The notes beneath the pieces were generated by a model. That model was given only the letters and a program-made list of their open reading frames with translations, searched no databases and was not told the origin of the DNA. From Craspedostauros australis (taxonomy: Eukaryota; Bacillariophyta; Bacillariophyceae; Mastogloiales; Achnanthaceae), in contig JAMXDE010000020.1 of NCBI GenBank assembly GCA_026770025.1, positions 992,001 to 1,056,000 of the forward strand: 64,000 nt of DNA. The letters are read 5' to 3'. This document shows positions 34,854-59,899 of the stretch, in pieces. Within the stretch, counting starts at the first letter, position 1. Each line of letters begins with the position of its first letter. The position numbers were made by a program, and so were the translations under genes.

Positions 34854-37800
34854 ATGAAGCTATCGATTCCGCAAGCGGCATTCCTGCTGCTGGCCTTCCA
34901 GCAGTCGGCTGCGCCATCGTCGACATCGTGCAGCGCCTTCGTGGTTCCAAGACATGGCACCAATAGCATCCCGGCAAGGAATGTCGGGCCTTCGGTCTTG
35001 ACCACATCACCCTCACAATCACAAAACAGCGCATCCGCATTGGGACTTTCCGTCGCAGATGCCATCGCATCGAAGGATGTGGCCGTGATGCAGCTGTCCA
35101 ACGTCGTGCATGCCATCAACGACATCGTCTCCACGTTCCTTCAGACCAAACTTGCGATGATGCTGCAGCTCGTGCAATCGCTGCTGGAGACAGCCGAACT
35201 TGTGGACGTGGCCAATGAACTGGTAACGGCTGTTTCGTCTCAGTTCGATCAGTACCTCAAGGCCAACTATCCGGGCTTCGAAGTGCAGTATGCCAATCTC
35301 GTGGAATCCATCTCGGCGGCGATCACTTCGGCGGGCATCGATCCGGCCGTGCTGCTGCTCACCTCTTCCGTTGTCGCCTTTTCGATCGTCGTGGTGGCAT
35401 CGGGCGGTGACAATGAGGAAACACCTCTGCGACCGTATCCCACCAATCGCTACGATCCGGAATCGGCGCGTCTGTACTTCAAGCCGAGGGTGGGGGAAGT
35501 GCTGGCACGCAGCATCGGCATTGCCCTGCAATCGGCCAGGTTCGGTCTGTCGCTGCTGCAGGACAAGCTCAAGGATGAAATTGCGGTCAACGAGGAGAAG
35601 CGTGCATTCCAGTTGGCGGAGCTACTCACGAAGTTGGGGCCAACCTTTATCAAGAGTACGTCGTGATACGATGCAATGCAATTCGAGTGTTTCTGCCTTG
35701 TTGATCATGTTGCGAGATTGCGGTTCAGTAATGTTGTGCAAGCACATACCACTGATGTTTCCTGATGTTCAGTTTCAACCCCCCTTGCATGACACAAAGA
35801 CGTTTCCAAGAGACATGTCCCTCACATTTTGTCGTCCCACAATGCCATACATCCATTCATCGAACATCACCCACTTTCTCGACTTCATTCTCATCACTGT
35901 CCATCTGAATCACACTTGTACATCACAGTCGGCCAATCGCTTTCGATCCGAACAGACCTGCTCAGCCCAGCTTACGTGCGCGGACTGTCCAGCTTGCAGG
36001 ATCAGGTCAAGGCGTTCGATTCCGACATCGGACGTGAAATCCTGCAGAAGGAATGGGGCGGTCGCTCCGTGGATTCGGTCCTCAAGACCATCTCCGACGA
36101 ACCAGTCGCCGCTGCCTCCTTGGGACAGGTCTACAAGGCCACCATGATGGACGGGCGCGAGATCGCCATCAAGGTGCAGCGTCCCAACATCATGAACCAG
36201 GTCGCCCTCGACATGCACCTGCTGCGGGAATTTGCACCCATCGCCAAGAACACCTTCAATCTCAACACCGACACCACCGGAACGGTCGATGCGTGGGGAT
36301 CAGGATTCGTGGATGAATTGGACTATTTGCAGGAAGCCAAGAACGCGCAGGATTTCATGGAGAAGATCCAGGAGACACCGTTGAAGGATGTCGTGCTGGC
36401 ACCCGATGTCGTCGAGGAGCTGTCGACCGGCAAGGTACTCGTCACGGAATGGGTCGACGGTGAGCGTCTCGATAAGAGCAGCAACGAAGACATCACCGTC
36501 CTCTGCAGCATCGCCATGAACACCTACCTCACGATGATGCTCGAAATTGGATTGCTGCATTGCGATCCTCACCCCGGCAACCTGCTGCGCACTACGGAGG
36601 GCAAACTGTGCGTCTTGGATTGGGGCATGGTCACGCGTCTCGACTCCAATCTGCAGCTCACCCTCATTGAGCATATGGCACATCTCACATCCGCCGATTA
36701 CGCCGAGATTCCCAGGGATCTTCTGCTGCTCGGCTTCATCCCGAAGGACAAGGCGGACCTGATCGAGGACAGCGGCGTCGTCGAGCTCTTGGCCGACATT
36801 TACGGTGCCTGGAGCACGGGTGGTGGCGTTGCCGCCATCAACGTCAACAAGGTCATCTCCCAGCTGCAGGATCTGACGGCTGAGAAAGGAAATCTGTTCC
36901 AAATCCCACCCTACTGTAAGTGTGCATGCATGCTTGCATGGTGCCCATGTTCGTTTTCTTTTTGGTACCATCGCTCGCGTTTGTTTGTTTGTTTGTTTGT
37001 TTGTTTGTTTGTTTGTTTGTTTGTTTGTTTGTTTGATTGATTGATTGATTGATTCCTTCTGATTCGACTCGCTCACCCATCAACATGCATACTTTCTCCT
37101 TCCTTTCATTCCACTTTCGCCAACTGCATCCAATCTTCCTCATTCCTCCAGTGTAAGTACAATCGCAAATCCATGCGGCACGTCGCTTGCGTCGCATGTC
37201 ACGATCGCTGCGCTCGTCGCTCTGCTCTGTTCTGTTCAGCCTCGATTCCTTCTCTTTTCTCACCACCTGTGCTATTTGCTCCATATTTTGCCAATCATTG
37301 ATCTCAATGGCGACTCTACGACTTATTATTTGTCGCCCGCACAGTGCGTACATTGCCAAGTCATTCTCCGTGTTGGAGGGCATCGGACTGTCCAACGACG
37401 ACAAGTACAGCATCATTAACGAATGCTTGCCATACGTGTCCAAGCGTTTGTTGACGGACAAGTCGCAGATGGGACCAGCCCTGTCGACCTTCATTTTCGG
37501 CCCAGACAAATCCAATGTCGACACACGCATTGTCGATATCGACCGAGTCGAACAGCTCGTCACCGGCTTTGGCAACTACACGACTTCGGCGTCCGGTGCC
37601 ATGCTGGGACAACAGAATGTCACTGCCGTGCAGACCCTTGAAACCGCCGCTGATTACCTGCTGGATATTGTGTTCACTGAGGAGGAGTCGCCGGTACAGG
37701 ACATCCTGCTGGAGCAGCTTGCTAAGATCGCCACATCCGCATCGCGGTCCGTGTGGTCGGGCGTGCGTCAGAATTCTGGAACGTTGCCAGGAGGTCGCAC

Positions 37801-56268: not shown

Positions 56269-57214
56269 CGTGTGCTTGTGTCGGTGGGCTGCCGTGGTTG
56301 TTGTGACAAGAAACGTTGACGAAATGACGAGAATGCTTCTGTCATCCACAACGGTAGACGGAGGGCATGATGCGGAACTGAATTGCGGCGATGTTTCTGT
56401 TCATCAAAAACTTTTGACCAAAGGATGCGTTGTTGGGCCAGGCCCAGCCACTCGCAAACATCAGCACCCTTGGTCGTGCAATCCCTTGCTTCCAAGAGCT
56501 CTCTGTTGCCTCGGCCCTACAGCGCAGCTGATGTCGCGCCTTGTTCTCCATGAAGCAAATCACGAAACTCTGCAAGTACTGGTCCTTTTGTACTCGTATA
56601 ATAGCTCGTATCATGGAACCGTGCCAACATACACGCTCGACGAGCAGCGAGTGGTCTCATCCGAACCGCAAACGAAGTCGCAGATACAAATAGTTTGCGG
56701 TGCTGCTGCTATCCTTCGGGACTCATTGGTGTTACCTGGGTTCTCGTTGAGGTCTCCGGTACCGTGGGCGCCATGCCAGTTGACGCGAAGGAGATATTGT
56801 CTCCGGAAATGAACGCAACCAACAGAGAATCACTGGAAGAGAGCTGAAAAGTCCGCGCGATGGTGCAGAATGGCGCATATAGGTCCAACACACCAACTCT
56901 GTATCTTCTGCCGCCGCATTCGCTCTCCCACCAAGCCACATTTCTTCCGAAAAGGAAGGAAAGTGACAGCAAACAAACTCACAGAAAACAGCATCGACTT
57001 CGGGTGGTGGATGTTTTCGTTTGCGCAGCATCGGCGTGTCGATACTTTCGAGTGGCCAGAGCGTATTGAGTATTCTGTGATATGTACTGCTGTCTGTCTG
57101 CGTCTGCATATATGGTGTGATGTGATACTACGATCGATGTTTGGATCTTTCTTCTTGCTTCCCATCTGTACGAGTGTACCGTCTCCGTCCGTCGACGTTC
57201 CGAGTTGTGATGGT

Positions 57215-57420
57215 TATTAGAGCACTATCGAAAAATCACAAGGGGTGAGCAAAAGCAAAGTACCATGCCGGGATTCGAACCCGGAACCTCAGTTAGAATT
57301 ACTGGTGCTCTACCGTTGAGCTACAGGCGATGCGATTGCTGATCCGAACACAAGTGAAATTTATAGATAGTGGGGGCTACGGGAGTAACGTACTTAGCAC
57401 TATTCAGTTTTGTGCTGATA
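57215..57420 (-). repeat. Terminal direct repeat, copy 1 (206 bp)
   Basis: Identical to 57672-57877 over all 206 bases. On the minus strand it contains a TATAAATT box (57365-57358) upstream of a tRNA-like segment and a TTTT run after it. Confidence 0.9.
57261..57330 (-). ncRNA. tRNA-like sequence with intact Pol III A and B boxes (copy 1)
   Basis: On the minus strand the A box reads TAGCTCAACGG (57323-57313) and the B box GGTTCGAATCC (57281-57271). The D stem (GCTC/GAGC) and the five-pair T stem (CCGGG/CCCGG) are perfect, and a T run follows. The acceptor stem pairs at only about four of seven positions, and the anticodon loop lacks the invariant U33 in the best fold. It is therefore more likely a tRNA-derived Pol III promoter or a tRNA pseudogene than a working tRNA. 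It lies inside the terminal repeat of the mini-element. Confidence 0.6.
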
Positions 57421-57671
57421 CTCCCCTACGCTACGACCGTGGACCACCCGCTCAAGAGCACTATGACGGAAAGTTGTCATCTCCCGCGTCTCCCCATCTC
57501 GGGGCACCCTCATTGCTGGGTGGCTAATACTGCCAGACGAAAGTGGGAGTGCTGCCGTAGCAGACAAGTGTGAGACTGGGTCGAAATCCGGTGATCGCAA
57601 CGCGCCCACGAAGGCGTGTTGTGCAAGGTTGTCCTAACTCAGCGATGTAGAACTAGCTGCGACTGTTAATC

Positions 57672-57877
57672 TATTAGAGCACTATCGAAAAATCACAAGG
57701 GGTGAGCAAAAGCAAAGTACCATGCCGGGATTCGAACCCGGAACCTCAGTTAGAATTACTGGTGCTCTACCGTTGAGCTACAGGCGATGCGATTGCTGAT
57801 CCGAACACAAGTGAAATTTATAGATAGTGGGGGCTACGGGAGTAACGTACTTAGCACTATTCAGTTTTGTGCTGATA
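57672..57877 (-). repeat. Terminal direct repeat, copy 2 (206 bp)
   Basis: Identical to 57215-57420, offset 457 bases; followed directly by the ATGGT duplication. Confidence 0.9.
57718..57787 (-). ncRNA. tRNA-like sequence with intact Pol III A and B boxes (copy 2)
   Basis: Identical to the copy at 57261-57330, in the second terminal repeat, with the same faulty acceptor stem and intact internal promoter boxes. Confidence 0.6.
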
Positions 57878-59899
57878 ATGGTATTACATGATTGCAGCGG
57901 CAGCAATTGTTGCGTGTGGTTTAGCAGTCCGCGGTATGCTCCAAGCAACATGCTTCCCCTTAGCTCATCCCACACATGACGAATCGTCGAAAGATGCCCA
58001 CTGAAGGTCTTGGCCGTCCCACGAATACTTCCCTGTGCGTGTTGAGCCAGCGGACGGTGTGGACCTGCGCATGGTGTGAGCCAGCGCACGGTACGCTCGC
58101 ATGCATTATACATCCCATCACCTCGAAGCTGAGATGGAGGCACCATGCTAGTTCACACAGCCCGTTTCCGTCAGCGAAAAGACGATGCGCCAAGCTTTGT
58201 GCCGAATCAGAGAGTGTAATTCTTGCAATCGGTACAATGAGAGGGAGGAGCACATCGAGAGTTGATTCCGTGCCTTGGGCCACGTCACTATCTTTCCTAC
58301 TGCCTCTGCTGGCAATGCGATGCTGAGTGCTGATGCAACGCCGGGTGCGAGACAGCATGACGGCGGAGAGGCATGGCGATATCGGCAGTGGCCATCATCA
58401 CTGCGAGGATGGAATTGCATAGGACAGCACTGATCAGGGCAGCTGGCCTTGGAGTTAATCTCCCTCAGACAACCCAGGCAAAAACGCATGACTTCTGCGA
58501 TGCACTTCGGTTGGCATGCATTTTTCAGATCTGCATTCCTTTCGTGGGCCACCACCAAGAGAACAATCTGCGGCATCGGGATGGCCGTGGTTCGTCTTCG
58601 ATTCGAGATACCCGGTCAATATTGAAGGCGTCGCGGCTTTGAAAATTGAGGGGGTGGTGGGTTCGAAAAATCCTGACCGAACACGTACGCATCGTTCGGA
58701 CGAAGACCTTGACGAGTGTGCATGGGTCGCGGCGGCTTGATCTTTGCCGTTCGTTGGCGTGGCATCAGGTATCCACAATTCGGCGTTGCCGGCACAACTT
58801 GTACTACATCCGGGCATTGCCCATGTTGCCAACATCAGCGTCGCGAATCTAACTTCATGGTTCGTGGGCTGAGCACACAATGGTACAGAGCCGAGTATGG
58901 CGTGAGCAAAAAATGGCATGTTGCAAAATGGATGTTTTCGGTGGTGGAAAGTGGCGTCGCTGGCAGTATTCGCATGTATGCAATAAACCAACAAGACCCA
59001 CCATCGTGGGCGATCTCCCAGTCTCATCCTCGTGGAACTCAATAATGACACCAAGATTGCCTCGTCCACTTCAGATGAAACGTAAATGACGCAAATATTT
59101 CGACGCTCTGCCGTCGAAGGGTGAAGCGAAAGACTCGAATAATCTTCGCAGCCGTCATGATTCGGCTACAGACTTGACATCCAGCATGGTCTCAAGAGCC
59201 ATCGTTCCTCAAGTGCAAGATCGCAATGATCCTGGGCGATCTGTACAGTTATGTGGCGGTGTGAGCGTGATGCTTGGGGGTCGAGTCTGGCGCAATGCTG
59301 TCTTCGCCGCTGACCTGAGGGGATTGGGATCTGGGGGAATTGATTCCAACGATGCCAACTGTCAACTTCTTCGGGACAATCACCACCATTGCATTCGTTC
59401 GCGCTCGTCTGAAGATGCGCTCCGAGGGCCAATGAACGCATGTCATGTTATCACCCTTTTCATCCCTCCAACTCTGAATCGTCGTCTCATGACGGATTCC
59501 GGCTGATGCGAAGTAGAGTCCTCGTATGGAAGATGTTGAATCGCTTGCACCCCCAGCAACGGCACTTCTGTGATGCTCCGAAGAGGAGTTAGCTGGGCGA
59601 TGGGGTTGCGCGGTCTTGATCGTGGAATGAATTGGAATGAGATGAGGTGGAATGAGGTGAAATGATTCGATGCCATTCGAAGCATCAAGACCGCCATTGG
59701 CTGTGAATGGGGTACTCGGTGTGAGCGCAATGGTGATATCATGGTCTCCAAGTATGCAGTCCATAAGCGCTTCGAGTGAGAGCGTTGATATAAGCAGAGC
59801 ATAAACATGCACGATTCATCATGTTCGTCTGGCAAAAGCGCACATTGGTACTGATCACGTTGAGGTCTGAAGCAACCGCTTCGTGCACGATGCAAGTAG

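Follow-up and report, generated by a model that had tools for sequence, protein, structure and literature searches.

A probable Helenus-type miniature retrotransposon with tRNA-like terminal repeats and its likely Copia helper in the diatom Craspedostauros australis

Structure of the element

Analysis of a 64,000-nucleotide stretch of the Craspedostauros australis genome (assembly GCA_026770025.1, contig JAMXDE010000020.1, positions 992,001 to 1,056,000; hereafter the window) revealed a 663-bp element on the minus strand. Judged by its sequence organization, this element is very probably a Helenus-type terminal-repeat retrotransposon in miniature (TRIM), a non-autonomous long terminal repeat (LTR) retrotransposon that would be mobilised by a Copia family of approximately 8.5 kb. 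It comprises two identical 206-bp LTRs (100% identity) around a 251-bp core, which is too short to encode mobility proteins. The repeat at 57215-57420 was assigned as the 3' LTR because the purine tract GTAGGGGAG abuts it. A sequence-only reading of the window had described the identical 206-bp repeats, the 251-bp core, a target-site duplication (TSD) of ATGGT and the minus-strand purine tract, all of which we confirmed to the base. The A box, B box and TATAAATT that it had placed in each repeat were also found, and both repeats matched the Rfam tRNA model RF00005 at 35.4 bits. Its interpretation as a mini-LTR (TRIM) element with tRNA-derived promoter-like sequence in the LTRs is supported by the genomic family, the TSDs, the primer-binding site (PBS) and the polypurine tract (PPT). 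The features, including those relevant to transcription by RNA polymerase III (Pol III), are as follows.

57210..57214, no strand: TSD ATGGT beside the 3' LTR, identical to 57878-57882
57215..57420, minus strand: 3' LTR, 206 bp, starting with TATCAG and ending with CTAATA in element orientation, 100% identity to 57672-57877
57231..57235, minus strand: TTTTT of the 3' LTR, candidate Pol III terminator, from the sequence
57251-57254, minus strand: TTTT of the 3' LTR, second candidate Pol III terminator, from the sequence
57266..57325, minus strand: tRNA-like sequence of the 3' LTR, RF00005, 35.4 bits (gathering score 29)
57271..57281, minus strand: B box GGTTCGAATCC of the 3' LTR, from the sequence and the Rfam tRNA alignment
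57313..57323, minus strand: A box TAGCTCAACGG of the 3' LTR, from the sequence
57358..57365, minus strand: TATAAATT of the 3' LTR, 42 nt upstream of the A box, from the sequence
57421..57429, minus strand: PPT GTAGGGGAG abutting the 3' LTR, from the sequence; its edge 13-mer TAGGGGAGTATCA is common to the Copia family
57421..57671, minus strand: core (internal region), 251 bp, 21 copies in the genome
57657..57671, minus strand: PBS GATTAACAGTCGCAG next to the 5' LTR, with nt 1-14 complementary to nt 27-40 of nuclear tRNA-Asn(GTT)
57672..57877, minus strand: 5' LTR, 206 bp, identical to the 3' LTR
57688-57692 and 57708-57711, minus strand: T runs of the 5' LTR, from the sequence
57723..57782, minus strand: tRNA-like sequence of the 5' LTR, RF00005, 35.4 bits
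57728-57738, minus strand: B box of the 5' LTR, same as the 3' LTR copy
57770-57780, minus strand: A box of the 5' LTR, same as the 3' LTR copy
57815-57822, minus strand: TATAAATT of the 5' LTR, same as the 3' LTR copy
57878..57882, no strand: TSD ATGGT beside the 5' LTR, identical to 57210-57214

In the proposed mechanism, some transcripts would read through the runs of four and five T (T4 and T5) of the 5' LTR and terminate where these runs recur in the 3' LTR, yielding an RNA of approximately 550 nt with a terminal repeat of approximately 90-105 nt. This RNA would enter Copia particles, where the 5' half of tRNA-Asn would prime the minus strand and the purine tract would prime the plus strand, and the Copia integrase would insert the product with a 5-bp TSD.

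Copies of the element in the genome

We searched the 74.8-Mb assembly (90 contigs, with the window located in contig C18), using reversed sequence as the control for pattern counts. All of the 40 best of 135 candidates scored in the LTR search matched, and the core search yielded 21 matching copies among 21 candidates, with identities of 81-100% and the window copy included. A 30-bp LTR segment containing the A box was present at 128 sites with no more than 3 mismatches (0 in the reversed control) and was unchanged (0 mismatches) at 76 of them.

Both ends could be compared at 28 of the 31 loci read, which were drawn from the LTR and core searches; these consisted of 18 full copies and 10 solo LTRs. 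The remaining three were a hybrid with a Copia element on C40, a copy with an interrupted core on C13 and an old copy on C5, the last two being untestable for a TSD. Exact 5-bp TSDs flanked every testable locus (28/28; 18/18 full copies and 10/10 solo LTRs), with 27 different TSDs among the 28 loci, a few of which (TTTTT, CTCTC) lay within simple sequence. All 18 full copies had lengths of 662-664 bp. LTR pairs were identical in 16 of the 18 full copies and differed at 8 and 6 positions in the other two, a pattern showing that the family, apparently a young one, was recently active.

The sequence-only reading had looked for support to other copies with different 5-bp duplications, to solo repeats and to a larger autonomous relative. 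The genome contains each of these: the 21 cores, the 27 different TSDs, the 10 solo LTRs and the Copia family of approximately 8.5 kb, which shares the PBS, the PPT edge and the LTR start. The opposing cases that it had named included the absence of any other copy and a tRNA region simply duplicated in place, and both chance and local duplication are ruled out by the 21 core copies together with the 5-bp TSDs at 28/28 testable loci.

The LTR termini are not of the TG...CA type. They start with TATCAG and end with CTAATA or, in some copies, with CTTTCA or CTATCA. Because each of these three 3'-end variants occurs at loci with 5-bp TSDs, insertion seems to tolerate different LTR ends. Comparison of the core with known RNA families gave no match at E values up to 1. 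An empty allele of the window insertion was absent from the assembly, in which the flanks gave 2 matches, both at the filled locus itself. No exact LTR pieces were found in prokaryote genomes and viral contigs, a result that says little about eukaryotes.

The two loci untestable for a TSD showed rearranged structures. At C13:1591130-1597200, the Helenus core breaks off at position 240, and the PPT edge and LTR segment follow approximately 5.4 kb further on; this copy probably carries an insertion within its core. The old copy (core 81%, LTR 87%) at C5:1700586-1701048, in the region C5:1699100-1704900, adjoins another Copia element, with other sequence replacing the 5' LTR, and was taken for a putative nested insertion and not counted as a hybrid.

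Signals shared with a Copia family

A genome search for the tRNA-Asn anticodon arm identified five sites, all five of which were nuclear and were called as tRNA-Asn(GTT) by ARAGORN. The first 14 nt of the PBS GATTAACAGTCGCAG are the exact complement of nt 27-40 in all five genes; priming would therefore be by a half tRNA and not by the tRNA 3' end. A candidate extension of this antisense tRNA-Asn copy beyond the 14-nt PBS, suggested by visual inspection, was rejected as being at chance level: 29% of 5000 shuffles were as good, and in a second test the same held for 7541 of 20000 shuffles and for 6645 of the 18276 34-mers in the window.

The Copia family was recognised on C40, where a 709-bp Copia LTR directly precedes a Helenus core and is itself preceded by its purine tract ATAGGGGAG and a Copia body. 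Within this body, a 1636-aa open frame contains a Copia-type reverse transcriptase (Pfam RVT_2, 82.3 bits). When the best 40 of 212 candidates from a genome search with the C40 Copia LTR were scored, at least 12 LTR pairs bounded elements of 8453-8514 bp. The elements on C32, C22, C42 and C8 have LTRs of the form TATCAACATC...GATTATCA (TATCA...TTATCA), 5-bp TSDs and the PBS GATTAACAGTCGCA, the first 14 bases of which are as in the Helenus PBS. The PPT junction was CTATAGGGGAG/TATCA (AGGGGAG/TATCA) on C32, C22 and C42, the three elements with the 3' junction read.

The exact PBS 15-mer occurs at 49 sites in the assembly and at none in the reversed control. Twenty of these sites are Helenus cores, one of which (C40:418652) follows the Copia LTR in the hybrid, and 28 directly follow a Copia-family LTR end (27 plus the C42 element; 40 bases, matched by eye). 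The last site, C40:426445, marks the junction between the hybrid's Helenus LTR and its Copia body. For the PPT-edge 13-mer TAGGGGAGTATCA, the assembly contains 78 sites (0 in the control), comprising 19 at Helenus core ends, C13:1596975, whose distance to the LTR segment fits a Helenus LTR, 29 at Copia elements, 3 in Copia tandems and 26 without a family assignment. Because the PBS, PPT edge and LTR start are shared, and because the PBS 15-mers are confined to the two families or their hybrid, the Copia family of approximately 8.5 kb is, on these sequence signals, the likely helper mobilising Helenus.

Three observations count against this assignment. The first is the unassigned third of the PPT-edge sites noted above (26/78). 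The second is that Pfam recognised the reverse transcriptase alone in the hybrid's Copia, with no match for the downstream frame. The third is that, outside the PBS, PPT and LTR start, Helenus showed no similarity to the C40 Copia, the one Copia compared. In that comparison, the Helenus core and LTR were set against the first 1500 nt of the Copia body, its last 540 nt and the Copia LTR, with the best of 200 shuffles as the cutoff; one of the six comparisons exceeded the shuffles, through the 15-nt PBS and narrowly (30 vs 29).

Copia reverse transcriptases are very abundant in this genome; there were 1493 candidates, and among the best 150, which were scored, a large class is formed by open frames of approximately 2050-2084 aa. 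Tandems of two Copia bodies sharing one LTR were located, by pattern positions only, as a PPT and a PBS one LTR length apart, at C26:762449-763179, C26:778679-779409 and C37:640751-641481.

A Helenus-Copia hybrid on contig C40

The hybrid occupies C40:418210-426665 on the minus strand and lies within one TSD, TCCAG. In element order, a first Helenus LTR is followed by a PBS, the Copia body and a PPT; next come the Copia LTR, a second PBS, the Helenus core and another PPT, and a second Helenus LTR closes the insertion. An assembly chimera with another copy is disfavoured because the hybrid's Copia LTR is at most 96% identical to the 39 others scored (best 40 of 212 candidates). A C at position 22, seen in just two other aligned loci, is common to both Helenus LTRs of the hybrid, which differ from each other solely at positions 204-205, the 5' one ending with CTATCA and the other with CTAATA; the matching outer LTRs therefore indicate that both derive from one Helenus. 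The CTATCA end looks like the Copia LTR end TTATCA, but because a solo LTR on C13 also ends with CTATCA, this ending alone is no proof of exchange. Both joints have the Copia-type TCA next to the PBS; the shared stretch is 15 bp for the PBS and 18 bp with TCA. End-to-end joining of finished cDNAs was rejected because it would leave two LTRs in direct contact, unlike the order seen in the hybrid.

This arrangement suggests that Helenus and Copia RNAs were copied together. We tentatively propose, at somewhat less than even chance, that an RNA made by Pol III enters particles and is copied together with Copia RNA, and that this requires no more than the 14-15-nt PBS, the PPT/LTR edge of approximately 13 nt and compatible LTR ends; the C40 locus would be a fossil of such a particle, in which strong-stop DNAs swapped templates at the common PBS. 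If true, C40 would document, in a natural genome, that a Pol III-promoter TRIM and its helper were reverse-transcribed jointly; no such record was found in the open PMC literature searched.

It is also quite possible that the hybrid formed after insertion, when a circular one-LTR Copia DNA recombined into a resident Helenus at the PBS, a scenario that is silent on joint reverse transcription. It would account for the addition of exactly one Copia body and one Copia LTR at the LTR/PBS boundary, and the rare C at position 22 and the differences confined to 204-205 are as expected for one resident Helenus; the three Copia tandems with a shared LTR (two on C26, one on C37) indicate that comparable structures form between two Copia copies as well. 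However, only 15 bp of PBS (18 bp with the preceding TCA) are common at the joints, and the Copia-type TCA at both joints is not expected from one simple crossover without repair. One Helenus RNA copied together with Copia RNA would likewise yield matching LTRs. We therefore prefer joint reverse transcription to later recombination only slightly.

tRNA-like sequence and transcription signals

The Rfam tRNA alignment spans model positions 6-65 of 71, covering the D and T arms, with most of the acceptor stem missing. ARAGORN called no tRNA within the 64-kb window, so the LTR tRNA is considered degenerate. Its score of 35.4 bits compares with at least 58.3 bits for genomic tRNAs (best 63 of 1610 candidates), and tRNA-Arg(TCT) was the closest to it among the nuclear tRNAs read from those candidates. 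Folding of the tRNA-like RNA was no better than that of shuffles (z scores of -0.26 and -0.90), and inspection by eye only revealed no pairing of the LTR tRNA-like sequence with the PBS.

The surroundings of the boxes were compared with those of 39 nuclear tRNA genes. Upstream of the A box of the LTR stand TATAAATT, at a distance of 42 nt, and CAA, at 15 nt. In 28/39 nuclear tRNA genes, CAA occurs between 25 and 7 nt ahead of the A box (shuffles: mean 18.3, maximum 27 in 1000 runs), and these genes have an AT-rich zone approximately 40-52 nt upstream of the A box, a distance like that of TATAAATT. A run of at least four T followed within approximately 38 nt downstream in 36/39 genes, at a median of 2 nt after the tRNA, and was exactly four T long in 22 of those 36; T4 is a usual tRNA terminator in this genome. 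Within the LTR, positions 167-170 are TTTT and positions 186-190 are TTTTT; the 251-bp core contains no T4 run. With these upstream signals, boxes and T runs, the LTR looks like a tRNA gene unit that includes both a promoter and a terminator, and from this promoter layout we infer that the element would be transcribed by Pol III, which the sequence-only reading had likewise put forward as a possibility.

Several results weigh against Pol III transcription. A strict TATA match was present upstream in just 4/39 nuclear tRNA genes, and TATAAATT could equally serve RNA polymerase II (Pol II). Among 50 LTRs, conservation of the A and B boxes did not clearly exceed that of the remaining LTR, with variable columns numbering 2/11 in the A box, 2/12 in the B box, 13/70 in the whole tRNA-like part and 16/55 in positions 1-55. 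In addition, most Pol III transcripts should terminate at the two T runs of the 5' LTR, so that a full-length RNA needs the assumed read-through.

The same TRIM and helper could instead depend on Pol II transcription from TATAAATT, with the tRNA-like part being a relic or serving RNA stability or packaging. The position of TATAAATT fits a start near the tRNA-like sequence, and this alternative also draws on the T4 and T5 runs that would impede Pol III and on the unexceptional conservation of the boxes. We nevertheless consider it rather unlikely, since both boxes are intact in the window copy though the remaining tRNA is degenerate and the A-box segment is unchanged at 76/128 sites; moreover, the C40 Copia LTR (one examined) contains no TATA[AT]A, and a Pol II box common with the helper is not evident.

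A tRNA-derived short interspersed nuclear element (SINE), or a stretch with a tRNA that was merely duplicated locally, would explain the tRNA-like sequence with its A and B boxes, but can be dismissed for practical purposes given the two LTRs, the PBS and PPT at the core edges, the constant 5-bp TSDs (28/28), the 10 solo LTRs and the 21 dispersed cores. SINEs derived from tRNAs have no LTRs, a variable TSD and a tail derived from a long interspersed nuclear element, whereas the window element has LTRs and constant 5-bp TSDs.

Comparison with known elements

The tRNA-bearing mini-LTR design is not new, as it has already been named Helenus (PMC10886601), and the statement in the sequence-only reading that no described example of this exact kind was known to it is superseded. 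Helenus and TRIMp3 were defined by Kojima 2024 (PMC10886601), the consulted sections of which, used throughout here, give fungi, animals and Selaginella as taxa. According to these sections, fungal Helenus elements have anticodon-loop PBSs and 5-bp TSDs, with tRNA-Asn-GTT used once. Their helper was identified as Copia from PBS similarity to Puccinia hordei Copia families and from one internal-sequence match between two rust species (PMC10886601).

The window element shares with Helenus, as described there, the A box TRGCY...YGG, a B box with GGTTC, the PBS, the PPT and solo LTRs with TSDs. Its TSDs are 5 bp long (4- to 6-bp in Helenus/TRIMp3), and half-tRNA priming is as in fungal Helenus. 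Further likenesses are a length below 1000 bp, the absence of mobility-protein coding, a tRNA-like part that is mostly no functional tRNA, and sequence in common with an autonomous LTR element, which here is confined to the PBS, PPT edge and LTR start. It differs in its diatom host, which is not among the taxa of Table 1 in PMC10886601. Relative to the helper evidence in the consulted sections, the case here is more extensive, with a PBS 15-mer that is exclusive to the two families across the assembly, a PPT edge and an LTR start that are also shared, and a hybrid insertion of the two. What is new here is the diatom host, the likely Copia helper in the same genome and the Helenus-Copia hybrid.

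Cassandra, a TRIM of land plants, likewise has a small-RNA Pol III promoter within its LTRs, but this is 5S rRNA there and tRNA-derived here, and PMC10886601 states that nothing points to an autonomous helper for Cassandra. Priming at the tRNA anticodon loop is shared with Drosophila copia and yeast Ty5 (cited in PMC10886601), the site here being tRNA-Asn nt 27-40. TARE1 of tomato is similarly Copia-like, with short 194-bp LTRs starting with TA instead of TG, but a tRNA-like promoter is not mentioned in the consulted part of that source (PMC3701649).

Among the matches listed in the open PMC literature, Repbase and the Helenus supplement aside, there was no stramenopile TRIM with a tRNA-like LTR. 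The consulted parts of PMC12859917 gave no further Helenus taxa, those of PMC4247016 contained nothing on tRNA-bearing TRIMs, and those of the diatom retrotransposon paper PMC2806351 had 0 occurrences of the terms tRNA, TRIM and non-autonomous. The element would add a stramenopile to the fungi, animals and plants in which Pol III-promoter TRIMs occur, in line with the view expressed in PMC10886601 that the design arose several times. How TRIM dependence on an autonomous partner is maintained is not known, according to the same consulted sections (PMC10886601). With a parasite and its likely helper in one compact genome, three short shared signals and a hybrid, this question becomes directly testable.

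Other observations

Elsewhere in the window, a GTTT tandem repeat is present at 36979-37051 (18 copies, 98% matches). Contigs C83 and C89 carry matching runs of organelle-type tRNA genes, with ribosomal-protein frames beside one of them, and are probably two copies of the mitochondrial genome. Contig C90 is plastid-like and, consistent with a diatom host, encodes cytochrome c550, the best PDB matches being 8iwh, 6jlu and 6j3y, which we take to be diatom photosystem II entries.
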